Below are positions 6,250 to 36,244 of a stretch of DNA of 64,000 nucleotides, piece after piece; the first letter of the stretch is position 1, and the number at the start of each line of letters is the position of its first letter. The notes under the pieces were generated by a model. It made no database searches, was not told where the DNA came from, and worked only from the letters and a program-made list of their open reading frames with translations. This stretch comes from Streptomyces atriruber (GTDB lineage Bacteria; Actinomycetota; Actinomycetes; Streptomycetales; Streptomycetaceae): the NCBI RefSeq assembly GCF_001418325.1, contig NZ_LIPN01000124.1, positions 1-64,000 on the forward strand. Reading direction: 5' to 3'. Position numbers and translations under genes: made by a program.

Positions 6250-6638
6250 GGACGTCTTCTTACCTGATGCGTTCGTGGGGCTGCGGCCTGACCGCCGTGC
6301 CGCGCCGCGCTGTGCCGGGTCCTGCTCGTGCGACCGTCGGTACTCCGGACCGGGTATCCCGCAGACGCAGACGCAGACCGGCGCCGAGCCCCGTGGCAAG
6401 CGGCCCGCCGTCCTGGTGCGGCGCACAACGCCCGGTCCGAGCTGCCAAGAGGCTCCGCCTCACCGAGGCGCATCGCCGCTGCGGCAATCAACTCTTCGAC
6501 GCGGCCGCCACGTTGCCGATTCCGATCGCGGTCGTGATTTGTTCGCATTGTGTATGTCGACCATCGCTCAACGGACCATTTCCGGCCAACATCCAGCCAA
6601 TTGCTGACATGTACCTGGTTGAAGTGACACGCTCCCCC

Positions 6639-6672
6639 GCAACACGCTGCACGTACAGCAACACGCTGCACG
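6639..6672. repeat. Two 15-bp direct repeats upstream of the M4 protease gene
   Basis: The sequence GCAACACGCTGCACG occurs at 6639-6653 and again at 6658-6672, offset by 19 bp, about 70-100 bp before the metalloprotease start. Exact tandem copies with two-turn spacing suggest a regulator site, but no regulator can be named. The rest of the 490-bp gap (6250-6741) shows no convincing gene. Confidence 0.5.
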
Positions 6673-6741
6673 CCCGCATCGCGTCTTTTTCTGCTCCGGG
6701 CGGCCCTCCATGCCTCCCGGGCCCCCACAGATGGAGCTCGC

Positions 6742-8373: not shown

Positions 8374-8396
8374 CCCCATCCGGTCGGTCACTTGAA

Positions 8397-8425
8397 GGGG
8401 CGGCGTCCGAAACGGACGCCGCCCC
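8397..8425 (+). terminator. GC hairpin after the M4 protease gene
   Basis: A perfect 13-bp stem (8397-8409 with 8413-8425) with a three-base loop starts 23 bp after the stop codon. There is no T run, which is common for Streptomyces terminators. It separates the protease from the degraded ALDH-tail copy at 8454. Confidence 0.7.
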
Positions 8426-8453
8426 CGCCGCGTTCACCGCATCAGCGGCGGCA

Positions 8454-8500
8454 GAACCCCAGCTTCTCGGGGCTGTACGAACAGAGATGTTCTTCGTCTC
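8454..8500 (-). repeat. Degenerate copy A of the ALDH 3' end
   Basis: On the minus strand this reads as a diverged version of the last 16-17 codons of the ALDH gene at 60953 (ETKNIS, then CSYSPEKLGF in a second frame after a one-base loss). By eye it agrees with that copy at roughly three quarters of positions. It begins directly at the stop codon of the FHA-flavoprotein gene. It is read as a decayed attachment-site copy; see the findings. Confidence 0.55.
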
Positions 8501-10370
8501 AGGCCGCCACCGCGGCCTCCTGCTGCGCGTAGAAGATGTCGATGTCGACCTCCTCGCCGCCGACGGTCTGGGTGTCCCACGGCCTGCTCCGGAGCAGTGT
8601 GTACAGGGTCTCGCTGCGCAACGTCTCCAGATGTGTGCGCAGCCGGTCGTCGTCCGGCATCCCCGCGATGCGTGGTGCCAACCGCTCGCGGATGGCCCGC
8701 AGTTGATCCAACAGTGCTTCGAGGTCGGCTTCCCGGTCGAGCGGCTGCTCCGCGGCCTCGGTGATGCTCTGCTCGATGACGTCCTTGATGGCGACGGTCT
8801 CCCCGTCCCCTTCCGTGGCGACCATGGCGTTCCAGGCGCGGCTCTTGTGCCGGTACTGGAGCATCGACATGGCTGCCTCGTGGCGGACGAAGTCCGCGTC
8901 CCGGAAGGGGCGTCCGCGCCAGGTGCCTGCGAGCGTACGGGCGAGCGAGATCGCCGATGCCAGGCCGCTGTTGAGGCCGCGGCCCGGCCAGAAGTGGATG
9001 GCGTTGGCGGCGTCGCCGAGCAGGAAGCCGTACGTTCCCGGTGTGGTGGCGGTCGCGGGGTGCAGGCGGGCGGTGAACCTGGGGCGCTGCACCATGTCCA
9101 GGCGGAACGCGGTGACCGCGGTCAGGTCCTCCTCGGCCACGCCGAACAGCGTGAGACCCTCCCGCACCCGCTTCCACAAGGCCGAGCCCTTGATCAGCGC
9201 GGGCAGGAACAGGGTGCTGTGGGTGTCGCACAGGAAATCGCCGTCCGGGCCGCGGTTCATCACGCAGGGGCGGGAGGCGATGCACTCCTCGAAGACCTGT
9301 CGGACGGGGTCGATCCCCACCACCTCCCGCGCCTCGCTGTCGGTGAGGCGCATGTTGAGGAAGCCCTCGCCGCGGAGCGAGTTCAGCAGGAACCGGTTCT
9401 GTGCCACGGTGAGGAGCACGGACATGGGGTCGGTGAGTTCGGAGGTGACCTTCAGTCCGAGGACGACGTCCTGCAAGTGCTCGCCGTCGAGGGAGTAAAT
9501 GGAGGAATCGGCCCGGCCGAACTTCGCCGTGAAGTGCTCCCGGGTCCGCGACCGGCCCCCCTCGCAGATGGCCAGGACGTGTCCGGCCGACGCCACCGCC
9601 CGGTGCTCGCCGGGGTCGAACCGCTCGGGGACCAGGCGGATCCGGTCCGGCTTCTGGCCCGCCAGGTCCAGGAGGACGTCCTCGACCCGGGCGATGCGGA
9701 TGTTGCGCGGCGCGTGGCCGTCCACCGAGTCCGGTCCCGCCGGCCACATCTCGCTGAACGAACCTTCCTGGAAGAGCCGTTCCCGCACTTCCCCGGGCAG
9801 CGCCAGGTACTGGCGGCTCTGGACCGTGACGACCTGTTGGCGGCGGACGTTGCCCTGCTTCTCGTCCTTCCACACCACCCGGCCCCCGTCGCGGGTCCAG
9901 CGCCCCTCGTACACCGTGACGCACACCCGCTGCCCGAGCAGCGATTCGAGCTGCAGAGCGAAGGCGAGGCCGACCGGCCCACCACCCGAGACGGTGACCT
10001 CGAGGACCGGGCCCGGTTCCTGTGTCGACGGCGGTGCGAGTGCCTCCAGGACGGACAGGTCAAGGATGGTCTCCATGGGGTCGGCCGCTTCGAAGCCGAA
10101 GGTCTCCTCGCCGATGGTGAACAGATCACCGGGTCGCAGCACGTGCGAGGTCGCGCGCTCCCCGTTCACCACCGTCCCGTTGGCGCTTCCCCTGTCGTAG
10201 AGGACGAACCCGTGCCCCTCCCGGCGAACCTCCGCGTGCAGCCGCGAGATGCTCGCGTCGGAGATCACCACGCTGTTCCCGCTCCTCCGGCCGAAGGTGA
10301 GCGGCTTGCTCCCGATCGCGAACCTCTGCCCGGCCAATGCTCCCCGGCGGCCGACAATCTCTGGAGGCAT
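8499..10370 (-). CDS. FHA domain-FAD monooxygenase-like fusion protein
   Basis: 623 aa. Residues about 5-95 form a forkhead-associated domain (FGRRSGNSVVISDASISRLHAEV, then DRGSANGTVVNG), which binds phosphothreonine peptides. From about residue 122 a Rossmann FAD fold starts (TVSGGGPVGLAFALQLE). Near residue 455 is the second FAD motif GDAANAIHFWPGRGLNSGL of group A flavoprotein monooxygenases. The C-terminal 130 residues are helical and unassigned. The fusion suggests a flavoprotein tethered to Ser/Thr kinase signalling; substrate unknown. No kinase gene is adjacent. The stop codon touches the degenerate ALDH-tail copy A, so the gene end lies at a possible recombination junction. The ribosome site is weak (CGGAG about nine bases upstream). 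Confidence 0.85.
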   Translation of the reverse strand: MPPEIVGRRGALAGQRFAIGSKPLTFGRRSGNSVVISDASISRLHAEVRREGHGFVLYDRGSANGTVVNGERATSHVLRPGDLFTIGEETFGFEAADPMETILDLSVLEALAPPSTQEPGPVLEVTVSGGGPVGLAFALQLESLLGQRVCVTVYEGRWTRDGGRVVWKDEKQGNVRRQQVVTVQSRQYLALPGEVRERLFQEGSFSEMWPAGPDSVDGHAPRNIRIARVEDVLLDLAGQKPDRIRLVPERFDPGEHRAVASAGHVLAICEGGRSRTREHFTAKFGRADSSIYSLDGEHLQDVVLGLKVTSELTDPMSVLLTVAQNRFLLNSLRGEGFLNMRLTDSEAREVVGIDPVRQVFEECIASRPCVMNRGPDGDFLCDTHSTLFLPALIKGSALWKRVREGLTLFGVAEEDLTAVTAFRLDMVQRPRFTARLHPATATTPGTYGFLLGDAANAIHFWPGRGLNSGLASAISLARTLAGTWRGRPFRDADFVRHEAAMSMLQYRHKSRAWNAMVATEGDGETVAIKDVIEQSITEAAEQPLDREADLEALLDQLRAIRERLAPRIAGMPDDDRLRTHLETLRSETLYTLLRSRPWDTQTVGGEEVDIDIFYAQQEAAVAA

Positions 10371-10667
10371 CTCCCCACTCCGATCCCGTGCACTCCCCGG
10401 GCCGCGACGTCCACGCTGCCCGCCATGGGCCTTGAGAGACGCTCGCGGCCTTCCCCTGTTGGTTCAGTACACACGGAGGTACGAGACGAATCGCGCAAGC
10501 GTTCAGGTGGAGGGCAAGTTGCGTGGTTCGGGGTCGGATCCGAGAGCAGGAGCGGGCCGACGTCGGCCGCTGGGGCCTCACCATCTGACGACCTCCAGGG
10601 GGCCCCACCGGCCTCCACCAGTAGGACCCCCGCCGGTGGCCTCAGGGCAGAGGAACCACCAGAGGCG

Positions 10668-11222
10668 TCAGCTCCGGAGAACCACCAGGGTGATGCCCGC
10701 CGCTACGGCGCCGAGCGCCACGGCGGCGACGCCGTGCACGAGGCGGTGTGCGCGCAGTACGGGAAGGAACCGATCGGCCGCGAGCTTGCCGGGTCCGGTC
10801 AGTGCCAGGCTCGCGGCGGCGACGAGGAGCAGCAGCTCGAACTCGATGCCGGTGGGGCTGAAGAAACCGCCACCCCACTTCACGGCGATCACGTTGAGCA
10901 TGATGCCCACGATGCCCGCCCCGGCGAGCGGGGTGAGCAGACCGGTCACGAGGCCCAGGCCGCACAGGGTCTCGGTGAGCCCGGCGACCACCGCCATGGT
11001 CTGTGCGGCCGAGTAGCCGTTGCTCGCGAAGAAGTCCGCGGTGCCGTCGAGGCCGCCCCCGCCGAACCAGCCGAAGAGCTTCTGGGCTCCGTGCGCGGCC
11101 ATGGTCAGGCCGACCGCCCAGCGCAGCAGCAGGAGCCCGGCGCTACTGCCGGACCGGGAGGTCGTGGTGAGGGAGGCGGCGTCGTTCAGGGATGTGGTGC
11201 GCGTGCTGGTGAAAATGGACAT
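10668..11222 (-). CDS. DoxX family membrane protein
   Basis: 184 aa from ATG 11222, with AGGAGAG upstream; the longer frame upstream is not supported. About 35 polar N-terminal residues are followed by four hydrophobic helices with the family hallmark RWAVGLTMAAHGAQKLFGWFGGGG and GLTETLCGLGLVTGLLTPLAG. DoxX-like proteins are small quinone-related or stress-associated membrane proteins. An added hydrophobic C-terminal segment (HGVAAVALGAVAAGITLVVL) gives a fifth helix. It probably stands alone; the next gene upstream on the same strand is a small membrane protein 111 bp away. Confidence 0.85.
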   Translation of the reverse strand: MSIFTSTRTTSLNDAASLTTTSRSGSSAGLLLLRWAVGLTMAAHGAQKLFGWFGGGGLDGTADFFASNGYSAAQTMAVVAGLTETLCGLGLVTGLLTPLAGAGIVGIMLNVIAVKWGGGFFSPTGIEFELLLLVAAASLALTGPGKLAADRFLPVLRAHRLVHGVAAVALGAVAAGITLVVLRS

Positions 11223-13793: not shown

Positions 13794-14407
13794 GATCTTC
13801 TCCCACGGTGGATTCTGCTGTTGCTTCTGTGACTCGCCGAGGAGACCAGCGACCCGGCCCGGAGGTTGTACGAGACGGCGAAGGGCCTGGCACGACATCA
13901 CGACCACCGGCGTCGTGATCGGCCCCCCGCCCTTCACTAGCACCTGGTCAACCAGCACCACGAGGAACCGCCGGCCCTTCTGCGCACCTTGCGCCCGGAT
14001 GCACCTGTGGAGCTGGAGCGGTTGGTCAGTCGACTCTCGGCCAAGGCCCCCGCCGGGCCGACGTCATTTCTAAGATCTCGCTCTCCCCGAGCGAAGCCAC
14101 CGATGGTGCGGTCGTTCCCGTGTGTATGACCGCCCACGAGAACTGCCCTGCCTGCCCAGGACCACACCCGGCTCGGGAGGGCCCGGCCGTGGCGCGCCGC
14201 GGCGGGGGCATGACGCACTTGGCTGGACGCCGCGCAGGAGCTCGCCACAACCGGCCTCGGCCGGGCTGACGGGCCCATGTCCGGCAGCCGTTTGTGCCCG
14301 AATATCCCACTGTGGCCAGTGAGTCGGACGGTTAGCCTGACTCCACTCGCGCGGCCGGCCGGTGAGAACGGGGCGCGCGCCGACCGGGGAGCGGAAGGGG
14401 AGCACCT
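13794..14407. other. 614-bp gap without a convincing gene
   Basis: A coding-like stretch of about 44 codons on the plus strand (around 13950-14080, containing PVELERLVSRLSAKAPAGP) is open but has no start and breaks off; it may be a gene remnant. Nothing else was recognised. The methyltransferase ribosome site (GGAAGGGGAG) lies at the right end. Confidence 0.4.
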
Positions 14408-15454
14408 GTGGCGAACGAGGAAACCAGGAAAGCCGAGCAGGCGGCCCGAGGGCACGTGGCCCAGCTGGCCTTCGGGAACATGGTGGTCCAGACCCTGCGC
14501 GCCGCGACGCGGCTGAAGGTCTTCGACCTGATCGGCGACGAGGAACGTACGTCCGCCGAGGTGGCCGGGGCGGCCGGGGCCCAGCCGCAGGCCATGAACC
14601 GGCTGCTGCGGGCCCTGGCCGGCCTCGGCCTCCTCACCGAGCGGGCCCCGGGTTCCTTCGCGGCCACGCCCGCGGGCATCCTGCTCGACACGGGCCGCCC
14701 CGACTCCATGGCGGCCCTGGTGGGCATGCTCACCGACCCCGAGATCCTGCGCCCCTGGGAACTCCTGGAGCAGGGCATACGGACCGGTGCCAGTACGTTC
14801 GAGACGGTCTTCGGCAAGGACTTCTTCTCCTACATCAAGGAACGCCCGGAGCTGTCCGCGCAGTTCAACGCCGCGATGAGCCAGGGCACCGCGGCGACCG
14901 CCGCCGCGCTGCCGCACGCCTTCGACTTCGGTCGGTTCACGAAGGTCACCGACGTCGGCGGTGGCGACGGCACACTGCTGACCGCGGTGCTCCGCGCGCA
15001 TCCCGCCCTGAGCGGAGTCGTCTACGACTCGGAGGAGGGACTCGCCCAGGCCCCCGAGAAGCTGCGGGAGCACGACCTCACGAGTCGGTGCACCCTGGTG
15101 GCCGGGGACTTCTTCAAGTCGGTGCCCAAGGGGTCCGACGTCTATCTGATCAAGAGCGTGCTGCACGACTGGTCCGACGACCTGGCGGCGACCATCCTGA
15201 GCAACTGCCGCGAAGTGCTGCCTCCCGACGGGCGGGTGCTGATCGTGGATCCCGTGCTGCCCGAGGTCGTCGACCCGCGGACCGCAGGCCTCACCTACCT
15301 GAGCGATCTCCACATGCTCGTGGGCGCGGGTGGCCGGGAACGCACGCGCAAGGACTTCGAGGAACTGTGCGGCCGGGCGGGACTCACGATCGTGTCGGTA
15401 CGCCCGATCGACGAGGCCTACGGATTCGGCCTCATCGAGGCGAAGGCGGCGTAG
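14408..15454 (+). CDS. SAM-dependent O-methyltransferase (COMT/AcnMT class)
   Basis: 348 aa from GTG 14408 with GGAAGGGGAG upstream. The N-terminal winged-helix dimerisation domain (about 15-100; QPQAMNRLLRALAGLGLL) is followed by the Rossmann methyltransferase fold. SAM motif I is VGGGDG (about 183-188). The catalytic base motif LHDWSDD contains His253. This architecture is that of natural-product O-methyltransferases acting on phenolic hydroxyls. There are no biosynthetic genes directly beside it, so the substrate is unknown. It may be a stray tailoring gene within the island. Confidence 0.9.
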   Translation: MANEETRKAEQAARGHVAQLAFGNMVVQTLRAATRLKVFDLIGDEERTSAEVAGAAGAQPQAMNRLLRALAGLGLLTERAPGSFAATPAGILLDTGRPDSMAALVGMLTDPEILRPWELLEQGIRTGASTFETVFGKDFFSYIKERPELSAQFNAAMSQGTAATAAALPHAFDFGRFTKVTDVGGGDGTLLTAVLRAHPALSGVVYDSEEGLAQAPEKLREHDLTSRCTLVAGDFFKSVPKGSDVYLIKSVLHDWSDDLAATILSNCREVLPPDGRVLIVDPVLPEVVDPRTAGLTYLSDLHMLVGAGGRERTRKDFEELCGRAGLTIVSVRPIDEAYGFGLIEAKAA

Positions 15455-15858
15455 CCGGGCTCGTCCCACCCCGGGCCGACCGGGTCCGGGACGTCTCTCG
15501 TGACCACCGGCGGTACCCGACCCACGGTCTGTCCGCATCACCGTTCAACGTGTCGTCCGTGCCGCTGGGCGAGCCGCGCCGTTGGCACTGGTGGTCGCAG
15601 GCCGACTGGATCTGGCTGCCCCCCCACCACTGGGCCGAGAACATGACCCGGACCCTGGATCCCTGCGACTTCGCCTTTCGTGGCTGCCGTCGGTGGTTGG
15701 GCTGTTGGAACAGGGTGAGGTGGGTGCTCGCCGTCGTTGGATGAGCTGCGGGAGGAAACCGACCGCAGCCAGGCCGAGCCGGCCGGGTTCGAGGACCTGT
15801 CCCGGCCCCGTGGAGGGGATGATCAGGGGCGCAGCCCGTCGTCGGGCCGCGGGGACGG
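15455..15858. other. 400-bp gap with a possible transposon-accessory remnant
   Basis: On the plus strand near 15680-15810 two frames together read LPSVVGLLEQGEVGARRR and DELREETDRSQAEPAG. This resembles the start of the small coiled-coil proteins that accompany some Streptomyces insertion sequences. It has a frameshift and no flanking repeats. Low confidence; the rest of the gap has no signal. Confidence 0.3.
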
Positions 15859-16635
15859 TCAGACCGTCGGCGCGAATGCGGTGATGACGTCGACGAGTTC
15901 GGCCGGGGCTTCCAGCGGAATCAGGTGACCGGTGCGGGGGACGACCACGAAGTCGGAGTGGGAGAGATAGGGCACGAGGTTGTCGCGGAGCACGCCGACG
16001 GGCTCCACCTGGTCGTGTTCTCCGGCGACGACGAGAGCGGGCACGCCGACCATGCGCGTGTGTTCGGTGATGTCCTGCGCGATGCCGTGCAGCGGCCACT
16101 CGGTCCGGGCGGCATCGGTGATGGTCCGCGAGTCGGCCACGATCTGCGCCTTGACCGGCTCGGGCAGCTCGGTCGCGGTGAGGACGTGATCCCGTGCCCC
16201 GGCCACGGACTCGGCGGAGTCGTAGGCGTGCGCCAGGGCCTCCTGGTACTCGGGAGTGACCTGTGCGGCAGGCTTCGCCGGGCCGGAGCCGACGAGAACG
16301 ATGCCGCGCAGCCCGGCGGGCCGGGTGGCCGCGACCAGCTGTGCGACCTTTCCGCCCATCGAATGCCCCACCAGGACGTAGTCGGTGACGCCCGCGTCCG
16401 CGAGCACGGCGAGCGTGTCGTCGGCGAGCTGACCGAGTGTGTAGGGACCGGGCAGAGCGCTCGACCGGCTCCACCCGCGGAAGTCCATCGTGAGCACGTC
16501 ACGGCCCGCAAGGCGGTCGACGACGAGGTCCCAGGTGCGGGCGGAACCGCCCCAATAGTGCAGGAACACCAGAGTCGGTCCGGTCCCCGTCCGATGGTCG
16601 TAAGTGGGCAGTAGCGTCTGCTGCGTCGTGTCCAT
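15859..16635 (-). CDS. Alpha/beta-fold hydrolase
   Basis: 258 aa from ATG 16635 (GGAAGAG nine bases upstream). The fold is clear: oxyanion region LVFLHYWGGSARTW, nucleophile elbow GHSMGGKVAQL, the acid in VVAGEHDQVEP, and the histidine in TGHLIPLEAP. Its size and motifs fit the haloperoxidase/esterase-like single-domain hydrolases. It is divergent from an AraC regulator with a 112-bp gap, the usual layout for a regulator controlling its neighbour. Substrate unknown. Confidence 0.9.
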   Translation of the reverse strand: MDTTQQTLLPTYDHRTGTGPTLVFLHYWGGSARTWDLVVDRLAGRDVLTMDFRGWSRSSALPGPYTLGQLADDTLAVLADAGVTDYVLVGHSMGGKVAQLVAATRPAGLRGIVLVGSGPAKPAAQVTPEYQEALAHAYDSAESVAGARDHVLTATELPEPVKAQIVADSRTITDAARTEWPLHGIAQDITEHTRMVGVPALVVAGEHDQVEPVGVLRDNLVPYLSHSDFVVVPRTGHLIPLEAPAELVDVITAFAPTV

Positions 16636-16747
16636 GATGGCTCTTCCGGTCGATGCTCTGGGTTGTTTTCCCCGTGCATTCATTGAAACTTCTGCACCCG
16701 GACGGGGCATTGGCGTGACTGGTCGCCCGATGATGAAAACTGGACAC

Positions 16748-17575
16748 ATGAGCGTGATCCGGCAGATGACCTACCAGCCCGCGGGGCGTCCCGCCGCCTC
16801 GGTCGAGACGATGACGTTCGGCCGCCTTCGCGAGCTGAACGACGGCGGCACGCAGCGCGCCGACTTCCACGTCCTTGCCGTCATCGACGCCGGACCCGGC
16901 GCAGTCGCCGTCGATTTCCACCGCCACCCGCTCGAAGACCGGTCCGCGGTGTGGATTCCACCCGGCGCGGTGCACCGGTGGGATGACATCGCCGACGTGG
17001 CAGGGCACCTCGTGCTGTTCGTGCCGACCGCGCCGGTCACCCACGCCACCCGAGAACTGGCCGCCTCCTCTGACCCGGCCGGGCACTGGATCATCCCCGA
17101 CGCCGACTGGCCCTTCGTCGACACGGCGCGCAGCCATCTCCTCCTCGAAGCATCCGCCCCGCCCGGTGACTCCCGGACCGAGCTTCCCGAAATCCTGCTC
17201 TCCGCGCTCATCACCCGGCTGCAACCGCCGCATGCCGAAGCGCGGCTCGCCCCTCAGGTGTTCCGGTTGTTCCGCTCCAGCGTCGAAGCGCACTTCCGGC
17301 AGCACCACGACGCCGGCTACTACGCCCGTGCGCTGGGATACGCGCCCCGCACCCTCTCACGAGCGGTGCAGCAGGCCACGGGCCGCACCGCGAAGGCGTA
17401 CATCGTCGAACGGATCACCCTGGAGGCCAAACGGCTCCTCGCACACGACCGCCTCACCGCCGCCCGCTGCGCCGACCTGCTCGGCTTCCCCGACGCATCC
17501 GCCTTCTCGGTGTTCTTCCACAAGGCAACAGGCAAACGCCCGGGCGCATGGCAGGCGACGGTGGTCACCGAGTGA
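16748..17575 (+). CDS. AraC family transcriptional regulator
   Basis: 275 aa from ATG 16748. The N-terminal cupin-like sensor (FHVLAVIDAGPGAVAVDFHRHPLEDRSAVWIPPGAVHRWDD) is followed by a C-terminal double helix-turn-helix (YYARALGYAPRTLSRAVQQATGRTAKAYIVERITLEAKRLL, then LGFPDASAFSVFFHKATGKRPGAW). It has the usual length and order for AraC regulators that sense a small molecule. It is divergent from the alpha/beta hydrolase gene, its most likely target. Confidence 0.92.
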   Translation: MSVIRQMTYQPAGRPAASVETMTFGRLRELNDGGTQRADFHVLAVIDAGPGAVAVDFHRHPLEDRSAVWIPPGAVHRWDDIADVAGHLVLFVPTAPVTHATRELAASSDPAGHWIIPDADWPFVDTARSHLLLEASAPPGDSRTELPEILLSALITRLQPPHAEARLAPQVFRLFRSSVEAHFRQHHDAGYYARALGYAPRTLSRAVQQATGRTAKAYIVERITLEAKRLLAHDRLTAARCADLLGFPDASAFSVFFHKATGKRPGAWQATVVTE

Positions 17576-17639
17576 GGAGGCACCCACACGAACACGCACA
17601 TCTATGCGCATGTGCGTCACAAGCCGTGAACACCGGCCG

Positions 17640-17905
17640 CCCGTGCTCGCCTCTCTATCCACCTACACTTCACGCCGCCCGACTCGCCTTGGCTGAACCG
17701 GGTGGAACGGTGGTTCGCCGAGCTCACACAGAAGAACTTCAAGCTCGGCGTCAACCGCCGGGTCCAGGCCCTCGAACACGACATCCGGTCCCGGCCGGCC
17801 GACTGGAACGAGCTACCCGGGAACGTTCGTCCGGACGAAGACCGCCGACGAAATCCTCGACACAGTGACTGCCTGCTGCCGACGAATCTCCGGCTCAGAT
17901 CACGG
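17640..17905 (+). pseudogene. IS630-type transposase C-terminal remnant
   Basis: Fragments in two frames give HLHFTPPDSPWLNRVERWFAELTQK, then FVRTKTADEILDTVTACCRRISGSDH. This is the end of IS630-family transposases, including the last catalytic acid (VERW/F region). The 5' half is missing and at least one frameshift near 17820 separates the two parts. No terminal inverted repeats were found. It is inactive debris inside the island. Confidence 0.75.
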
Positions 17906-28079: not shown

Positions 28080-29276
28080 GTGAGCGAGGACCTTCAGCAG
28101 CAGGCCGAGGAACGTACGGCATCTGTGGTGGAGCTCGCCCGGGAGCTGGTCAAGCGACCAAGCAGGGGTGAGGTCGACGGCTATGGGCCAGTCCTGGGTG
28201 TGCTGGAGGATTGGCTCGCCCTGCGCGGCCTGCCACACCGCCATCTGCGCGATGATGACGATGAGTTGGTGGGTCTCCTGGTGGAGATTCCCGGGCGGCG
28301 TCCGGGGGCCTGGTGGACGCTGGACGCGTGCCTGGACACCGCCTCGTACGGGGACGAGCAGGCGTGGTCTTTCCCGCCCGCCTGTGGGGATGTTGTGGAC
28401 GGCTGGCTGCGAGGGCGGGGCGCGGCCGACTCCAAGCTCGCCGCGGCGATGTTCTGCCACATCGCCGCCGACCTCGTGCCCCGCGCTGAGAGCCTGCACG
28501 GCGGACTCGCCGTTCTGTTGGACGTGGATGAGCACACCGGTGGCTTCGGCGGTGCCCGCGCCTACCTCGCCGACCCGCAGGCGCCCCGCCCCGCCGGGGT
28601 GATGATCGGCTACCCCGGCATGGACCACCTCGTGGTCGGCGGCCGGGGCCTGTGGCGGGCCTCGATCGCCGTGCATACCCCCTCCGGGCACTCCGGCTCC
28701 AGCAAGAGCGTGGTCGGAGCAATCTCCCGCGCCGCCCGCCTCGTCAAGCTCCTGGACGACGCCGAACTCCCCGGCACGGCAGGGACCTCAAGCTCGGGTT
28801 TCCCGCTGCCGCCGAAGCTATCGGTCACGTCGTTCCACGGCGGCGAGGGCTTCTCCGTCACCCCCGACCGGTGCGACCTGAACATCGACATCCGCACCAC
28901 GCCGTCCTTCGACGGCCACGATGCCGAGACGCTGGTCCGCAAGGCCGTTGCCGAGCTCGATGCGGAGCTGCCCGCTCCGACGCCCACCGAGATCATTCCG
29001 ATCGCCGCGTGGCCCCCCTTCCGCCTCGCCGAGGACGAACAGCCCGCCGCCGTCCTGCTGAACGCCGCCGCTGAGGCAGGGCTCGCAGTGAAGTCAAAGA
29101 CCGCAGGACCCTCCAACATCGGCAACCTGCTCGCCGGGGAAGGCATCCCGGCGACCGCCGGCTTCGGCGTGCCGTGCGAGGGGCTGCACGGCATCGACGA
29201 GCGCGCCCACCTCGCCGAACTTCCCATGGTGTACGCCGTCTACCAGCGTGCCGTCCTCAACCTTCTGGAGGGCTGA
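28080..29276 (+). CDS. M20 family metallopeptidase
   Basis: 398 aa from GTG 28080, with GGGGAG upstream. It is a dizinc aminoacylase/carboxypeptidase fold: GRGAADSKLAAAMF (bridging Asp), DVDEHTGG (catalytic and ligand acids), a lid domain (about 190-300, VHTPSGHSGSSKS) and a C-terminal region with GLHGIDERAHLAEL (last His ligand). The first zinc motif, usually GHxDTV, reads LDACLDTAS, with Cys at the His position. Activity may be altered or use Cys as ligand. It is cotranscribed with the truncated XRE gene. Substrate unknown. Confidence 0.82.
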   Translation: MSEDLQQQAEERTASVVELARELVKRPSRGEVDGYGPVLGVLEDWLALRGLPHRHLRDDDDELVGLLVEIPGRRPGAWWTLDACLDTASYGDEQAWSFPPACGDVVDGWLRGRGAADSKLAAAMFCHIAADLVPRAESLHGGLAVLLDVDEHTGGFGGARAYLADPQAPRPAGVMIGYPGMDHLVVGGRGLWRASIAVHTPSGHSGSSKSVVGAISRAARLVKLLDDAELPGTAGTSSSGFPLPPKLSVTSFHGGEGFSVTPDRCDLNIDIRTTPSFDGHDAETLVRKAVAELDAELPAPTPTEIIPIAAWPPFRLAEDEQPAAVLLNAAAEAGLAVKSKTAGPSNIGNLLAGEGIPATAGFGVPCEGLHGIDERAHLAELPMVYAVYQRAVLNLLEG

Positions 29277-29356
29277 GGTCACTGGCGGAGCGCGGCTATT
29301 CCTCCTCGGCGGTATTCCTGTCGGCATAAGGAGAGAAGACGCCAAGGGGTCGCAGG

Positions 29357-29605
29357 TCATGAACGCTCCGCAGAGGATAGATCCGGACCTCCTCCGTCGG
29401 GGGGTGACGACGAGGCGGACCCGTCTCGCCCAGCGTGGGGCCGACGCTCACGAAGGCGGACTGCTACGGCAATCCCGGCCCCAGCCACTGTCGCTGCTGC
29501 GGTTGCGCGGTCGGGGTCCAACACGTCACCGAGCACAAGTCCACACACCACTGCTGTGACACCCAACGCTGCGGTGGCCCACCCCGCTCGCTTCTTCCTG
29601 GCCAT
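29357..29605 (-). CDS. Small membrane protein, divergent from the NACHT gene
   Basis: 82 aa from ATG 29605 with GGGAGG upstream, which decides against the longer frame. Two closely spaced hydrophobic helices (WATAALGVTAVVCGLVLGDVL and ATAAATVAGAGIAVAV) are followed by a charged, Ser/Pro-rich tail. No family recognised. It is divergent from the NACHT-FGE gene across 184 bp, so it could be a membrane partner of that system; this is position-based inference only. Confidence 0.55.
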   Translation of the reverse strand: MARKKRAGWATAALGVTAVVCGLVLGDVLDPDRATAAATVAGAGIAVAVRLRERRPHAGRDGSASSSPPDGGGPDLSSAERS

Positions 29606-29789
29606 CACATCTGCCTCCCTTCGCCGTTGGTTCGGACCAGCAACCTGGTCGCAAATCGACCATGCCTCCGTTCCGGCCGTGCCGGCCGTTTCTGCATCAA
29701 GCTGGAACGGATCGGCACATGCTGGTTCGCGGTCCGCTAGCGTGGAACACGCAGTGACCGGGGATGCGCTGTGAGTAAGGAAGTCGGTA

Positions 29790-31877
29790 GTGACGGGACC
29801 GGAACGCACTGAAGACGAGAGTCACGAAGCGAGCTCCGTGGCGGACTTACTGAGTCAACTGCGCAAGACAGCAGGGACACCGTCGCTCCGCGAAATCGCT
29901 GCCCGAACAAACAACTTGATGCAACGTCACCAGGCGCAAGGCGCGTCACGACTGACTGGGCCACACGTGCAGCCGACGCGAGTGCCCCTGGTCACCCTCA
30001 GCCGCCTCTTCAAGGGCGAGCTCATCACGCAATGGGCCCAGGTCTACACAACCTTGTGGGCGTTGGGTGATTCGCAACAGCGCCCGCCGCAGGCCCAGGT
30101 GGAAGCCTTACGACGCTTGTGGAATGCACGATATGACGCTGAACGAGGCGGCGAGGCCGTTGCCGATGACCGTGAGGCGGTCGTATACCGGCGCGACATC
30201 CATCTCGCCTGCGGCAGCCTGCTGCGAGGGCCCTTGTTACCGCTCACGATCTGGCAGCCTTCCCATGGCACGGCTGACGCCCGTGAGGCCCTGCGGACAT
30301 GGCTTGCCTCGACACAGCGTCTGAGCACGGTCGTTGGCGGCGTCGGGTACGGGAAGTCGATGCTTGCCATGTGGCTGGCAGATGAACTGGCCCAGGAACC
30401 GAACGGCCCCGTACCGGTACGCGTGTCCGCGCGACGAGTGCTGGGCAACACAGGACAGGACACGAGCGCGGTCAGCGACACGGACATGTCCCTGCTCCGC
30501 TTTGCCCATCCACCGCTCCCTAAGCGACTGAGGGAAAGCATCGGCGGCGGGGACACCGACGCTGTGGTCATCCTCGATGACCTGGATGAAGTCGGTGCAC
30601 TGACTGCTACCGGCTTCGACTCATCACGGCGTGTGCTCCACCAGGCATTCACCTCCCTTGGGTCGAACATCCGCATCGTGGTTTGCTGCCGAGCCGTCGC
30701 GCTCAACTATTCAGATCCCAGCCATGCAACCGAACAGCGTGCCCTTATGGAGGAAACAGAGTTCGCGGTGCGGCAGGTGATCGACCCTGATGTCACGGGG
30801 TCCACTCTGTTAGGGATCGATGCTGTGGAGCAGGACGAAGCCGAGGCGTTTCTACGCCAGCGGGGGGTTTCAGATGAGTGGTTCGCCAGTGTCGGTTGGC
30901 CGCTGCCCATAGAACTCACTCCCCAGTTGATCCAGCTACTAGTCACTCTAGGCCGGACCTCCCGGGGGAAGGCCCACGAGCTCTCCCTGGATCAGATCTA
31001 TGAGCAGGTGGCATTCGCTTGGAAACGGAGTGTGCCGATCCTTGAGCGAGCCGAACGTCGAGACTGGTCCGCACTCCTCACATACCTGGAGCAGCGCTCG
31101 GCCTCCTTCATGCGTCCCATGCGGGTGTCTCCGGAGCTGGACAGACTCGCCGAACTGGCGGGGTTCCTCAGCTCCGATCAGCTAGGCAGCTTGAGGTTCA
31201 CACATTTCTCGTGGCAGGAGTTCTTCCTCGCCAGGTACCTTGCCGCCGAAATCTTGTCCAATAGGGCCGCTCTCTTGTCACGACTCAACCTGCTGTTCGA
31301 TTCAAACATCAACCGCTTCCTCGTGCCGCAACTCCTCCGCGGTCGCCGCTATAGAGCCATAACGACTAGCCAGCAACTTAGGGTTGTCACGGTCGGGGAT
31401 TTCAAGGAATTCCTGGCGGACACGAAGTGGCGTGGCGGGATCGGCTGGGGAGTCCACCCTGCAGGAGAACGCATCCGCGATCGATGGCGGCCGCCAGGAG
31501 ACATGACAGGTTCCCTGAGCGCAGAAGGCGGTCCGCCGCTCGGTGCAGCGGACAACGACCCGGTGACCCATGTCTCCTGGTACGACGCCGAGCGGTTCGC
31601 GGCCTGGATGGGGGGACGTCTACCACTAGGCGACTCGCCCGCCCCCCGCTCCCATAAACAGACTGCCCCACGTTATGCATGGACCGAAAGATGGGCCGAA
31701 GAATCTATGGCCGAGATGGAACTCCAACCTCTGCAGCAGAACCTGACTGCCCAGAAGACTTCGCGTAACCCCGACTTCAGGAGCCCCCAGATCGGCATCG
31801 CAGTGATGACCACGATGCCGTATTGGTCGGGGTTCAACCTTTCCGGTTCGACCACTTCTCACCTGGAAGGCGGGTAG
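29790..31877 (+). CDS. NACHT NTPase with C-terminally truncated FGE-sulfatase domain
   Basis: 695 aa from GTG 29790 (AAGGAAG upstream). The N-terminus (20-100, SVADLLSQLRKTAGTPSLREI) is HTH-like. The STAND/NACHT core follows: Walker A GGVGYGKSMLAM (about 182-190), Walker B DAVVILDDLDEVG (about 257), then the FTHFSWQEFFLARYLAAE motif of the helical NACHT region. From about 545 a formylglycine-generating-enzyme/C-type-lectin domain begins (VGDFKEFLADTKWRGGIGWG, then NDPVTHVSWYDAERFAAWMG). It loses similarity after GGRLP and ends in unrelated sequence, so the C-terminal half of the sensor domain is gone. Such NACHT-FGE proteins are candidate immunity sensors. Codon use is unlike its neighbours; at least three TTA codons occur (first at 29847-29849). 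Confidence 0.78.
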   Translation: MTGPERTEDESHEASSVADLLSQLRKTAGTPSLREIAARTNNLMQRHQAQGASRLTGPHVQPTRVPLVTLSRLFKGELITQWAQVYTTLWALGDSQQRPPQAQVEALRRLWNARYDAERGGEAVADDREAVVYRRDIHLACGSLLRGPLLPLTIWQPSHGTADAREALRTWLASTQRLSTVVGGVGYGKSMLAMWLADELAQEPNGPVPVRVSARRVLGNTGQDTSAVSDTDMSLLRFAHPPLPKRLRESIGGGDTDAVVILDDLDEVGALTATGFDSSRRVLHQAFTSLGSNIRIVVCCRAVALNYSDPSHATEQRALMEETEFAVRQVIDPDVTGSTLLGIDAVEQDEAEAFLRQRGVSDEWFASVGWPLPIELTPQLIQLLVTLGRTSRGKAHELSLDQIYEQVAFAWKRSVPILERAERRDWSALLTYLEQRSASFMRPMRVSPELDRLAELAGFLSSDQLGSLRFTHFSWQEFFLARYLAAEILSNRAALLSRLNLLFDSNINRFLVPQLLRGRRYRAITTSQQLRVVTVGDFKEFLADTKWRGGIGWGVHPAGERIRDRWRPPGDMTGSLSAEGGPPLGAADNDPVTHVSWYDAERFAAWMGGRLPLGDSPAPRSHKQTAPRYAWTERWAEESMAEMELQPLQQNLTAQKTSRNPDFRSPQIGIAVMTTMPYWSGFNLSGSTTSHLEGG

Positions 31878-31993
31878 TCGACGATAAGGGCGCATATTGA
31901 CCCATAGCACTTAGAGCATGACGGCAAATCCGCCCTGGAACAAATTCTGTTGCAGTGTTTCCAAGAGTCGAGTTTCCAAGTGGCGGAGTGCCC

Positions 31994-34333
31994 CTATTCG
32001 GAGGGTGCGGTATTCCTCGATGGACGGGCGTCCTCTTGGTCCCGTACTGCGAGGTAGGCCGACCAGTTGGGTTGCGAGTAGGAGGCCCGCTTGTGAGCGG
32101 TCTGGATGTTGATCTCCAGTAGGTGGGCGAGGACGGCGGCGGGCAGCTGTTCGGCCAGGGAGACCAGAGCGGCGCTGCGTCCGGGGACGGCGTGGAAGCC
32201 GGATTGGCGCATGAGCAGGCTGAAGCCCGCGGCGGAGAGCGGCTGACCAGGGACAATGCCAGGGAACAGCCACAGTTTGGCGCCATCGTCGGCGGGGAGC
32301 AGGGTCTCCTCGGCGGCCACCTCGGCGAGTTGGCGGAGGAGGCGGGCGAGTCGAGGCGGGATGAACAGCTCCTGCCGGTGCAGGCGAAGGTGGATCTCAT
32401 CGCCGCGCTTCTTGATGTCGTCCACGGCGAGGCGTCGGATGCGCTCGCTGGACAGGCCATAGAGGAGGGTGAGGGCGCGGGCAACGCGCACGCGTAGCGT
32501 CAGGGCACCGGAGTTGCGACATGTACGCAGTTCTGACCAGCGCTGTTCGTCCGTCAGCGGGGGCGGACCGTTTCCGGCGGGGGCGTGGGTGATGTCTTGC
32601 TTGCCGGTCAGCCCGCGGCGGAAGGCCCAGGTGAGGAAGGTGCAGATGTCATGGCGCCGTCCCGGCCCTGCGGCAAGCCAGTCCTCCAGGTGCCCTTGGC
32701 GCACGGTGGTGAGGCTCAGCTTGCGCTCATCGAGCCAGGCCAGGAAGGAGGGGATCAACAAGACCTCTGCGCGGATCCTGTTTCCGGCCCGGTGGACGGC
32801 GCGGCCCCGAGCGGCGCGGTGACGGGCTTTTCGCAGCAGTACCCACTGGGTGTAGGGCTGGACCAGACGCGCGTGGCCGGCTGGGCGGTCGGTCAAGACC
32901 CGGGCCAGCCAGGGGGTGATGCGCTCGAGGGACTCTTCGGGCTTAGGAAGGACGTGGGTGCGAACGAGCAGGGATCGCACGTAGCACTCCGCGTGGCTGG
33001 GCGGTAGTTCGTCGAGGATCTCGTGGGTGAGGGGACGTCCGGTGGCGGCCAGGTGACCGAGCAGTCGGGCGCTGTTGCTGCCCTGGAGCCAGGCGAGGAG
33101 ACGGATCGGACGGCCGGATTTCGTCAACAGGGCGATGAGTGGTTGGAGTTCTTGCGGCACCTGCCCCCTGGGGCCTGCGAGACGCTCGCGGAGCTGCTGG
33201 GTCAGAGTGCAGCGGATGCACCGGCCGTGGGCGTAGACCTCGCCGTCTTGGCAGTTGCCGCAGGGCGGTGGCGGCGGGTGTCCGGCGCAAGGTCCGCAGA
33301 TTCCGGTGCCGACGCTGTCCCGGCATGTCAGCGGACGTACTTGGTTGCAGTGCCGGCAGCGACGTCCGGTGTAGCGCAGGGTGCCGTAGCACGACTGGCA
33401 TACCGGGCCCAGCGGCCAGTTGGCGGCCACGATGCGCAGCTGCCCGCAATGCCCGCATGCGCGACGCGGCGGTGGCGTGCACTCCCGACAGGTCCATTCC
33501 TGCCCGCCCCTGCGCATGCATTCGCGCTGCCGTCCGCAGATAGTGCAGCGGGTGTGCTGGGTGGGGCGCCGGTAGCAGCGATAGCAGCGGGCGGGGTGCT
33601 CGTCGGAGGCACGCGCAGCGAGCGGGGCGATTTCGCCGCATTGCCCGCACTCGCCCTGGGGCCGGTGCTGCTGGTAGCACTGCGGGCACCAGGGGCCGTC
33701 GTCGGTCACCAGCTTGACCCGGTCCCGAGTGCCGCAGCCGGCGCACTGCCGTTGCGGACGGGGCCAGCAGCGTTCGCACAAGGGGGTGTCGTCTTCGCTC
33801 CGGGCGGCGGGGGCCCGGATGCGGCCGCACTGCCCGCAGGGCTTTCTGACCTGTGGATCATGGCTGTAACAGCGGTAGCAGATGCCGCCTTCGGGACGCC
33901 GCGCGGCGATCAGGGCCTGCCGTCCGCAGCGTGCACAGGTCTGCGGTGCCCGAGCCGGTTTGCATCTGCTGCACACCCGTCGGCCCTCCCTGTCGAGGAA
34001 GAGCCGATCGGGCAGGGCCCCGCAGGCAGTGCAGCCCGGGACGGGAACCTCGTGTCCGGCATCATGCAGGACTTTCGCAACCCGGTGGTGAGCAAGAGGG
34101 AAGGCGCGTCCCGGATCGGCGAGTGCGCTCGGCCGCAGTTGCCGGTAGGCGTCCAGCTCGCGGGCCGCACGCCCGGTCCAGGCTCGGGCGTCGCGCGAGG
34201 CGTTCTCAGCCTCGTGTTCCCTGATCCCCGGAAGCGCCCGCTCAAGGCACGCGACCAGGCGGCGCCGGACGTCGTCCCGACTCCCTTGCTCCGGGATGTG
34301 ACCCGGACGTGTAGCGCCGTCGTGGATGGTCAC
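31994..34333 (-). CDS. Zinc-ribbon-array protein with tyrosine-recombinase-like C-terminus
   Basis: 779 aa from GTG 34333. Residues about 100-375 hold 18 CxxC knuckles, enough for nine tandem zinc ribbons, each of the form CxxCGRxR...CxxCY. After a linker, residues about 450-770 look like a phage-integrase SAM-like core-binding plus catalytic domain (LERITPWLARVL, then ALTLLYGLSSERIRRLAVDD). The catalytic set is eroded: the GLRxSE arginine position reads GLSSER, the HxxR box reads PGRSAAL, and a Tyr remains in RASYSQPNW. It is the last gene of a three-gene unit, overlapping the XRE frame by a GTGA junction. It is likely a DNA-binding accessory recombinase subunit rather than a catalyst. Confidence 0.75.
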   Translation of the reverse strand: MTIHDGATRPGHIPEQGSRDDVRRRLVACLERALPGIREHEAENASRDARAWTGRAARELDAYRQLRPSALADPGRAFPLAHHRVAKVLHDAGHEVPVPGCTACGALPDRLFLDREGRRVCSRCKPARAPQTCARCGRQALIAARRPEGGICYRCYSHDPQVRKPCGQCGRIRAPAARSEDDTPLCERCWPRPQRQCAGCGTRDRVKLVTDDGPWCPQCYQQHRPQGECGQCGEIAPLAARASDEHPARCYRCYRRPTQHTRCTICGRQRECMRRGGQEWTCRECTPPPRRACGHCGQLRIVAANWPLGPVCQSCYGTLRYTGRRCRHCNQVRPLTCRDSVGTGICGPCAGHPPPPPCGNCQDGEVYAHGRCIRCTLTQQLRERLAGPRGQVPQELQPLIALLTKSGRPIRLLAWLQGSNSARLLGHLAATGRPLTHEILDELPPSHAECYVRSLLVRTHVLPKPEESLERITPWLARVLTDRPAGHARLVQPYTQWVLLRKARHRAARGRAVHRAGNRIRAEVLLIPSFLAWLDERKLSLTTVRQGHLEDWLAAGPGRRHDICTFLTWAFRRGLTGKQDITHAPAGNGPPPLTDEQRWSELRTCRNSGALTLRVRVARALTLLYGLSSERIRRLAVDDIKKRGDEIHLRLHRQELFIPPRLARLLRQLAEVAAEETLLPADDGAKLWLFPGIVPGQPLSAAGFSLLMRQSGFHAVPGRSAALVSLAEQLPAAVLAHLLEINIQTAHKRASYSQPNWSAYLAVRDQEDARPSRNTAPSE

Positions 34334-34649
34334 GACTGTCCGGGACGGCGGATAACCGTGTGTCGTACCGGCGGCGGAGCCGCCGTTTCACCAGCGGCCT
34401 TGGGGATCTGCCGATCGACCACCTGCACCTCGATCAGGTCGTTCGGGGTGCAGTCGAGGATGTCGCACAGCGCCGCCAGCGTGTCCATCGACAGTCGCTG
34501 TGGCGCCTGCGTCACCAACCGGTAGACCTGCTGCGGGACAACTGCACGCCGCGTTCCGCGAGCAGCGGCACCAACTCGGAGGTCTGGAACATGCCTTGCT
34601 CGGCCATCTTGTGCCGCAGCTTCCAGGAACAGCCCATCTTTCGGATCAC
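34330..34649 (-). pseudogene. XRE-type helix-turn-helix gene with one frameshift
   Basis: From GTG 34649 the minus strand reads KLRHKMAEQGMFQTSELVPL and LLAERGVQLS. After a one-base loss near 34540 it continues as QQVYRLVTQAPQRLSMDTLA and ALCDILDCTPNDLIEV to a stop at 34330. This is a Cro/C1-type HTH followed by a short tail, about 105 aa if repaired. Both ends overlap neighbours by GTGA (recombinase stop upstream, zinc-ribbon gene start downstream), so the three genes formed one coupled operon. The frameshift removes a functional product unless it is a sequencing error. Confidence 0.75.
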
Positions 34650-35766
34650 TCCGGCTCACCCCACAGGTCGTCTCGGTGCTCGGACAGGGCTCGGCGCAGC
34701 AGCCGTGTGCGGTACTCATCGGACACCCCCGTGTACAACGCCGTGGTCGACGCGTGCAGGTGTCCGACCTGCTCTTGCACGAACCGCTCGGGATAGTCGA
34801 ACTCGATCAGGTGGGTCACTTAGGAATGCCGAAGGCGGTGCGGATCCAGCTCCGTCGGCAGACCGGCCAGGTCCCGCACCGTGACGAAGGCATCGTTGAC
34901 CGACCGGCGGTCCAGGCGCCCGCCCCGCTCAGTAACCCACAGCGCAGGGTGGGCGCCAGGCCGCAGAAGTGGGCGGACCTCGCCGACCCACTGCTCAAGG
35001 ACCGGCACGATCCAGTCGATCTCGGGCACCAGCAAGATCGTTCGCCGCTTCGGCGCACTGCCCCGCGACGCCTTGCCGAACCGGACGTACACGGCACCAA
35101 AATGCCCGAACCGAGCTGTGCGCGGCACCCGTCGAAAGTCGACCAGGTCCAGCCCCGCTGACTCCTGCCGCCGCAGGCCAAAGGCGTAGACCGTCTTGAG
35201 GAGCGCGGCATCGCGCATCGCAGGCAGTGCCCCCTTCACCCGGCGCGCTCGGATCTGTTCCACCCGGCTGTCGGCAGCGTCGAACAGAGCCTGCACCTCG
35301 TCATAGTGCAAGGGGCGACGTCGTGGGTCGCCCTCGTACTCGGTGACGTGCAAGACCGTGTTCCACTCGTGGAACACCTGCTGCGGCACTGTCCCAAAGC
35401 GCCGTTCGCACTCCTTGGGCCAGTCATAGCGTGGATCGCTGATATAGGCGCAGAACATCTGGATCGAGACCTCGTAGCCCCGGGCCGTGGACACCATGAT
35501 CGGCCGGGTTCCGGACCGCAGATGGCTGGAAAGCCTCTGCCTCAGCCCGGCGTCCACTGCCAGGGATACAGCCCGGAGAACTCCGCCAGCCGACGAACCA
35601 GCGCCAAACGCGGAACGATCGTGCTGCTCTCGCGTAGAAAGCGAGCCTGCTGCTGCCGTGCCCAGCCATCCAACATCGCCTGGAACACGGCCGCTTCAGG
35701 GTCCAACGGGCGGACATTGCCAGCGAGTTCGACGACCGCAGACCCCGGAGGCTTACCGATGGACAC
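34646..35766 (-). pseudogene. Tyrosine recombinase gene with two indels and an ochre stop
   Basis: Starting at GTG 35766 (GGGAGGTG upstream) the frame encodes an N-terminal SAM-like domain (AVFQAMLDGWARQQQARFLR). It is broken by two indels near 35530-35550, then continues from about 35510 through TARGYEVSIQMFCAYISDPR to AFGLRRQESAGLDLVDF (first catalytic Arg) and DPHRLRHS (HxxR). A TAA codon (34820-34822) replaces what is normally Tyr in HSYVTH. In the same frame the rest follows: VQEQVGHLHASTTALYTG, with the GH motif and catalytic Tyr, then a stop at 34646. So the gene is complete in content, about 370 codons, but has three lesions. It is first in the unit with the XRE and zinc-ribbon genes. 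Confidence 0.8.
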
Positions 35767-35945
35767 CGCCCACCTCCCGTGTTGCATCCGACGCATCATC
35801 GTTGCGCCAGATCGGGTTGTCGGGGAATGCCCTGATCGGGTGCTCCGGGGCTATGGGCTTCGATTCGCTACTCGGCCTCTGGACCTGGGAGAACCACGTC
35901 CTCCTGCGTGAGGCTATGTTGCATCGCTTGCAATAGCCGCTGGTT

Positions 35946-35984
35946 CCCAGGCGCGTCCCAGGTTTCTCCCAGATCCACTCCCAG
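35946..35984. repeat. Four CCCAG iterons at 11-12-bp spacing
   Basis: CCCAG starts at 35946, 35957, 35968 and 35980, i.e. one helical turn apart, with inverted CTGGG copies at 35885 and 36004. The array lies between the divergent recombinase (start 35766) and the small peptide gene (start 36080). This looks like a binding array for a DNA-binding protein, plausibly the recombinase complex or the HTH regulator of the module. Confidence 0.5.
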
Positions 35985-36079
35985 CAAGTCCCCAACTCCG
36001 TCTCTGGGAACGGACCTTGTCTCGCGGTGACATGGAGTCAGCACCACTCCGCATCCACTGATGACAAGGGAGGCCAGTC

Positions 36080-36244
36080 ATGGCCGAGCAGACCATCGCC
36101 ACCATCAAGCCGGTTGAGGACAAGCTCGCAAAACCGGTCACGGGCAGCTTCGCGCCGCAGCTCAGCACCCACTGGGTGACCGAGGCCATCCGCGGCCGCC
36201 AGACGTTCAACGACTCCGACAAGGACAACTACTTCGAAGGCTGA
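36080..36244 (+). CDS. Small 54-aa peptide, possible RiPP-like precursor
   Basis: 54 aa from ATG 36080 with a strong ribosome site (AAGGGAGG). The N-terminal part (TIKPVEDKLAKPVTGSF) is leader-like and the C-terminal part (RQTFNDSDKDNYFEG) is polar, acidic and aromatic. There is no signal peptide and no Cys. Its size and two-part look suit a ribosomal peptide precursor, but no maturase gene is next to it. The following gene is a frameshifted conserved protein of unknown function. Too short for family assignment; precursor status is inference. Confidence 0.5.
   Translation: MAEQTIATIKPVEDKLAKPVTGSFAPQLSTHWVTEAIRGRQTFNDSDKDNYFEG

Follow-up and report, generated by a model that had tools for sequence, protein, structure and literature searches.

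The 64,000-nucleotide stretch of Streptomyces atriruber analysed here (contig NZ_LIPN01000124.1; the window) carries three overlapping minus-strand genes that encode a tyrosine recombinase (YR; gene int), a helix-turn-helix (HTH) protein and a long protein with an array of zinc knuckles. This trio is, in our judgement, very probably the core of a decayed copy of a YR transposon resembling Tsy, with the long protein as the partner that sets the target. In the mechanism that we propose, the int protein, the only one of the three with a recognisable YR active site, would cut and join DNA, acting on both element ends, perhaps through a circular intermediate. The HTH protein would serve as an accessory factor or regulator. 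The long protein, in which a LIM/GATA-like knuckle array is joined to a YR fold without the nucleophile, would bind target DNA, with the knuckles doing the reading, and set the site at which int inserts the element. A preliminary description of the window had suggested a targeting subunit working with a catalytic recombinase, and this gains support from the conservation of the trio, from precise ends and targets and from the parallel with Tsy; its remark that no described function was recognised for such a combination is superseded, as Tsy and its selector TnsF have been described (PMC10293859).

The int gene (34646–35799, minus strand) matches Pfam Phage_integrase over its open part (2.1e-9) and is broken by a frameshift near 35527–35545 and an in-frame TAA at 34820–34822, ahead of the region of the catalytic tyrosine. 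It is 87% identical over 291 amino acids (aa) to the int of locus L066, in which int and HTH are both open and the long gene contains a stop. The HTH gene (34330–34649, minus strand) matches HTH_26 over its open part (1.9e-10) and has a frameshift near 34535; HTH_26 is the third gene by Pfam in the window and in L034, L036 and L130. The long gene (31994–34333, minus strand) is an open reading frame (ORF) of 779 aa. GTGA overlaps join the three, as first described, at 34330–34333 (long gene and HTH) and at 34646–34649 (HTH and int), the second visible once the lesions are allowed for. Those lesions had not been noticed before. Because int and HTH are broken, the window copy, the only one in this 8.89-Mb draft genome of 703 contigs, is not expected to be mobile by itself. 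A tRNA-Arg call by ARAGORN at 35601–35675 lies inside int and was set aside as a probable false positive.

The long protein consists of N-terminal helices, nine paired CxxC zinc knuckles (residues 101–375), a helical linker and a YR fold without the nucleophile (484–766). Its ORF contains exactly 18 CxxC motifs, spaced 30–34 aa from pair to pair, and a zinc-binding array is predicted from these motifs and from matches to LIM-type proteins. Exactly 18 are kept in 15 of the 15 window-like relatives L041–L055, which excludes chance for the cysteines; L058 has 20 and L062, of another clade, 16. Pfam and NCBIfam yielded no match for the 779-aa protein, and a sequence search of solved structures gave weak matches only (GATA-3, 0.0065; LIM-type proteins, 0.036–0.054; XerD, 0.078). 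An AlphaFold2 model built from an 18-sequence alignment (predicted local distance difference test (pLDDT) 76.9, predicted template modelling score (pTM) 0.50) had a best Foldseek match of E 3.8e-5, and its residues from about 484 to 766 match YR recombinases (VIA Z 14.5 with XerA, 5hxy, and the Tn1549 integrase, 6en2). The fusion of nine CxxC pairs to a recombinase-like fold, proposed from the letters of the sequence, is thus borne out by the ORF count and the model. Modelled alone, the knuckle part (pLDDT 74.8, pTM 0.33) resembles LIM fingers and, weakly, GATA, so ‘zinc knuckles’ is a safer name for the nine pairs than the ‘zinc ribbons’ originally used.

The nucleophile column was defined by an LGxHxxTAxxW motif, placed by motif opposite the LGHxxxxTTxxY of recombinases. 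Across 68 aligned C-terminal domains it holds Trp in 62, Leu in five and Arg in one (the window), and Tyr in none; Arg at 719 and Tyr at 760 are each kept in 67 of the 68. The window protein deviates further from its relatives at E740 and R749. Since no row has Tyr at this column and other residues are strongly conserved, the missing nucleophile is, as the alignment reads, a family trait rather than decay: the catalytic residues had been called eroded, and the nucleophile is indeed absent, but from all 68 rows, so erosion is not borne out. Given the same absence, the probable role of the long protein is that of a target selector without catalytic activity.

The long protein was detected in 66 of 150 genomes of the genus and its family profile matched 19 of 296 genomes of the phylum (own genome included in both), and tblastn matched 221 plasmid records, 91 from Streptomyces and 57 from Rhodococcus. 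Of 82 places, 76 have both int and HTH ahead of the long gene on its strand, so the three-gene order is conserved and the long gene does not mostly occur alone. These places were drawn from loci L031–L100, L118–L134 and the window, wherever the C-terminal domain was almost complete and the upstream DNA reached at least 3.6 kb, and they include duplicates (L048 and L067 are the same place, L064 and L074 apparently so, and L043/L061 and L036–L038 are copies). Among the six exceptions, one or both partners were not found at L119, L127, L064 and L074, and int is split by a nested trio at L072 and L130. In a maximum-likelihood tree of the 68 C-terminal domains the window sits on a long branch beside a clade of Arg-I, Tn3 and nrdJ insertions (98/94), the first being sites at a YR motif described below, and 27 rows of the clade that inserts at a tyrosine codon (the 805-aa clade) group together (100/100; L081 lies outside the tree set). 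Most window-like members have 18 CxxC (L033 has 16 and L071 17), the 805-aa clade 15–16, L075 and L077 13, and truncated ORFs fewer. L079, L083, L085, L097 and L099 form a divergent clade of long proteins with only six as called and no assigned target.

Intact copies gave exact ends. Three copies in genome G089 are 99.74–99.98% identical over approximately 4.97 kb and stop together at both ends; a GNAT acetyltransferase gene lies between int and HTH in these elements (L036, 7112–7882). Kutzneria viridogrisea has two copies, on two contigs with different flanks; they are 100% identical across a stretch of exactly 4,015 bp that begins 108 bp ahead of the called int start, ends 18 bp past the long gene and holds one Pfam-positive YR, an HTH gene and a long gene that has no Phage_integrase match. 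A left-end dyad, TTGCATCnGATGCAA, lies upstream of int in many relatives, mostly 100–165 bp from the called start, and five window-like elements share the right end CC[AG]CCAGTA. A fourth YR gene was considered as part of the 805-aa element and rejected: beyond the border the copies are no longer identical and have different YR genes upstream.

These relatives, from soil bacteria, also reveal where the elements insert: many intact ones lie only a few bases from active-site codons in the recombinase genes of other mobile elements. In the 805-aa clade, the DNA upstream of the element codes for a tyrosine recombinase whose frame is lost just past the catalytic-Tyr codon, and YR genes are the target at 24 of 28 sites. 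Of these, 14 come from the first set, which has 17 loci whose left end was recognised: L035, L036 with its copies L037 and L038, L039, L040, L062, L072, L078, L080, L081, L084, L086 and L087. Pfam detected Phage_integrase in 10 of the 13 first-set targets tested, nine of the matches ending at profile position 165 of 172, and found nothing in the targets of L036a, L078 and L080, whose assignment rests on motif. The three other sites are 2′-5′ RNA-ligase-like genes in L089 and L090 (2.5e-6 and 0.003, the latter below the cut-off) and L092, which has no assignment. The second set comprised 17 of the first 24 plasmid rows (H42, H47, H50, H54, H56, H61 and H62 were skipped); a left end was recognisable in 11 and not in six. 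Ten of the 11 lie in YR genes by motif, L126 also by Pfam; L124, the eleventh, may by motif lie in an IS3-type transposase gene. The conserved left-end sequence starts shortly past the Tyr codon, at a distance of 3 bp in 22 of 24 cases and of 7 bp in the other two (L128 and L131). Because different recombinases are interrupted, these insertions are mostly separate events, and around the sites little DNA conservation was found beyond a TAC core and parts of the protein motif. The insertions retain the tyrosine and replace the recombinase tail (33 residues in ten loci), and the host recombinase therefore need not be inactivated.

Some elements are nested. At L130 (886–9002) and L072 (3209–11949) a trio lies in the int gene of another zinc-knuckle trio, and at L126 the trio interrupts the short YR gene of a set whose further members are a 719-aa YR and a DUF6262 gene; DUF6262 is presumably TnpC. 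L036 has two different trio elements approximately 3 kb apart (5823–10788 and 13833–17863) in neighbouring recombinase genes, one at a catalytic-Tyr codon and the other at an Arg-I codon. L035 (NZ_CP050438.1) is a 13.7-kb circular small plasmid record with an 805-aa-type trio in a recombinase gene; the circle may represent a larger element after excision, or a plasmid into which the transposon inserted.

Targets are more varied in the window-like clades. Eight left ends of the clade closest to the window come after the Arg-I motif of YR genes ([GAM]MRxxE), with only a short remnant at L050. The right flank resumes the YR gene at the next codon in five (L043, L061, L047, L050 and L055) and does not in L059; the remaining two of the eight are L036b and L056. 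The eight sites need not be independent, since 8.5 kb is shared by L047 and L059 at 76% identity. Pfam found nothing in seven of seven upstream halves (L050 was not among them) and no integrase in five of five right halves. The YR nature of these targets rests on motifs (for example FRR...H...Y) and on the first of two joined target genes that match uninterrupted plasmid genes; at least 80% is covered in one place by 59 of 67 matching plasmid records for the first and by 79 of 281 for the second. Tn3-family transposase genes carry the insertions L042 (Pfam 1.6e-4, below the cut-off) and L045 (1e-36). L041 is just after a ribonucleotide reductase gene, its target being presumably the nrdJ C-terminus. 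Members of another window-like clade hit UPF0102 genes (L046 and L053) or, judged by translation, the same motif (L048); all three share long flanks and may therefore be one insertion event. The assigned targets of the family are accordingly YR, Tn3 transposase, UPF0102 and 2′-5′ RNA-ligase-like genes and the 3′ ends of nrdJ and M20 genes.

The M20 site is that of the window. There the element spans 29277–35938 (minus strand; approximately 6.66 kb, borders uncertain by about 6 bp), inserted just 3′ of the stop codon (29274–29276) of a gene identified by Pfam as an M20 peptidase. The borders follow from the uninterrupted loci L102–L106, in which a block starting at the equivalent of 35939–35945 comes directly after the peptidase stop and the module is absent; of 199 genomes searched, four match this block from 35945 to 36237/36244 at 77–80% and a fifth matches 35939–36048 at 84%. 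GCTG is present at the border in both flanks. The right end (29277–29290, minus strand) reads CTCCGCCAGTGACC and resembles the CC[AG]CCAGTA ends of Kutzneria L043/L061, L047, L050 and L055, and the left-end dyad TTGCAAGCGATGCAA (35919–35933, minus strand) is the counterpart of that of relatives. An earlier right border at 31947, drawn at a weak inverted repeat, was dropped once the uninterrupted relatives had joined the peptidase stop to the block, and a search of the 199 genomes with the flank 31300–31990 alone gave nothing useful. The same comparison settles the CCCAG iteron array that had been counted with the module: the repeats exist, at approximately 35945–36010, but adjoin the peptidase gene without the module in L102–L106 and lie outside the element.

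Several observations weigh against our interpretation. The evidence for an element comes from comparison. No sequence similarity between the long protein and int was found with hhalign, so the YR fold depends on the model and the placing of the nucleophile column on matched motifs, and the near-invariant Tyr 760 could be a displaced nucleophile. Twenty-five loci with a left-end candidate (L092 included) have no assigned target, the nearest clade mixes YR, Tn3 and nrdJ sites, and the site of the window copy is not a recombinase gene. In Tsy, TnsF is catalytically active, and ZooTsy requires that activity (PMC10293859); as the trio family lacks the tyrosine, the chemistry must differ.

Specificity could also reside in int rather than in the long protein, which would then be an end-binding or architectural partner for synapsis, like Tfp of the SE elements, with no part in target choice. 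We regard this as improbable but as the strongest competitor. SE and GInt elements have a YR-fold protein without RHRY (Tfp/GinC), its role unproven (PMC10214605), and the TTGCA dyads at the element ends require a binder; against this, TnsF of Tsy binds target DNA in an electrophoretic mobility shift assay and insertion needs TnsF (PMC10293859), and the number of CxxC varies with clades of different targets (18, 16, 13 and 6), a correlation that is not decisive. An immobile relic or domesticated regulator, the long protein acting as a transcription factor or repressor akin to YR-fold phage repressors, would suit the broken window copy, the annotation of some long genes as XRE or Cro regulators and the further fold matches of the model with SroF, YopR and MrpR (Z 10.1–11.5), but it is made very unlikely by elements that occur in several near-identical copies, with exact ends and open int genes. 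Least likely of all is membership of the actinobacterial Tn554-like class (Van Houdt et al. 2012), which combines a long YR (611–828 aa) with a short one and frequently also has a third gene (PMC3414803): that gene is TnpC-like and the trio's is HTH_26, the long protein has no Tyr though both YRs of Tn554 bear RHRY (PMC10214605), two of the plasmids listed for the class, pBD2 and pRHL3, contain DUF6262 genes and no family-profile match to the long protein, and the L126 trio sits inside such a YR + YR + DUF6262 set, so this filing was rejected.

If the trio is the core of a Tsy-like element, the choice of recombinase genes invites a bolder and decidedly tentative idea: that these are hyperparasitic transposons, in which an inactive YR-fold protein reads, via a long clade-specific knuckle array, the degenerate DNA encoding the recombinase or transposase active sites of rivals. 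Insertion would disarm a rival element. Such a parasite would find a target nearly everywhere at low cost to the host; arrays would change together with target motifs, and both could be exchanged. In the literature searched, mostly open-access main texts, we recognised no account of such elements aiming at recombinase genes. Pairs of selector clade and target motif offer a way to study DNA reading by a zinc-knuckle/YR-fold protein, and the family lets one ask whether a recombinase works with a partner that has lost its nucleophile.

The remainder of the window element holds a cargo ORF of 695 aa (29790–31877, plus strand) with an NACHT-like NTPase (Pfam NACHT 1.3e-4, below the cut-off) and a cut FGE-sulfatase domain (7.4e-10, profile positions 44–138 of 255). 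It is reminiscent of genes for defence or conflict and seems to be cut short at the C-terminus. Outside the element, a small 54-aa ORF (MAEQTIATIKPVEDKLAK...; 36080–36244) behind TCCCAG repeats adjoins the M20 peptidase gene in other genomes, and the locus looks like that of a peptide precursor (akin to ribosomally synthesised and post-translationally modified peptides) with an iteron-like upstream region.

Among known systems, RIT elements likewise have three overlapping genes, but all three are catalytic YRs (PMC3414803, PMC10214605). Tn554 and its actinobacterial relatives share the joint short and long YR genes, and Tn554 is target-specific, but they encode two RHRY proteins and TnpC in place of HTH_26 and a long protein without Tyr (PMC3414803). 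SE and GInt elements resemble the trio in having a YR operon with a YR-fold protein without RHRY and imperfect inverted repeats at their ends; SE differ in encoding two catalytic YRs, Tfp and Srap where the trio has one Pfam-positive YR and an HTH protein, and no zinc knuckles are described for either in the part of PMC10214605 available. The TnsF of Tn6022, a Tn7-like element, also combines zinc fingers with a catalytically inactive YR domain for target choice, but its partners are TniQ and a Tn7-type transposase rather than a YR (PMC10293859).

The closest likeness is to Tsy, an experimentally studied transposon with the order YRec-HTH-TnsF, in which TnsF is a zinc-finger/YR-fold DNA-binding selector and the target is a conserved codon stretch, Walker B of comM, with the halves of the target gene on either side and cargo in some (Faure et al. 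2023, PMC10293859). The order is that of the trio (76 of 82 places; the window with two genes broken), and both long proteins have N-terminal zinc fingers, matching LIM proteins in each, ahead of a YR fold. The 5′ part of the target likewise lies upstream of YRec and the 3′ part downstream, sometimes after cargo; a conserved protein-motif codon stretch is the target in both, and the far end of Tsy, ...CCCAGTC, resembles CCGCCAGTA of trio elements. The differences are the nine knuckle pairs of the trio, its missing nucleophile, the comM target, which is no assigned target of the trio, and a GIY-YIG nuclease in one Tsy branch that the cargo-free 4,015-bp Kutzneria element lacks. The words ‘actinobacteri’ and ‘actinomyc’ do not appear in the main text of PMC10293859. 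As far as anatomy tells, the trio works like Tsy. It is not filed as Tsy, because its selector lacks the nucleophile that ZooTsy needs and comM is unused in assigned cases, and it is likened to Tsy by description rather than by TnsF sequence. What is new is an inactive nine-knuckle selector and the use of recombinase genes as targets. The Tsy/TnsF mode of target choice would thereby extend from comM to an actinobacterial family that is widespread and has several targets, most notably recombinase genes belonging to other mobile elements, related trios included.

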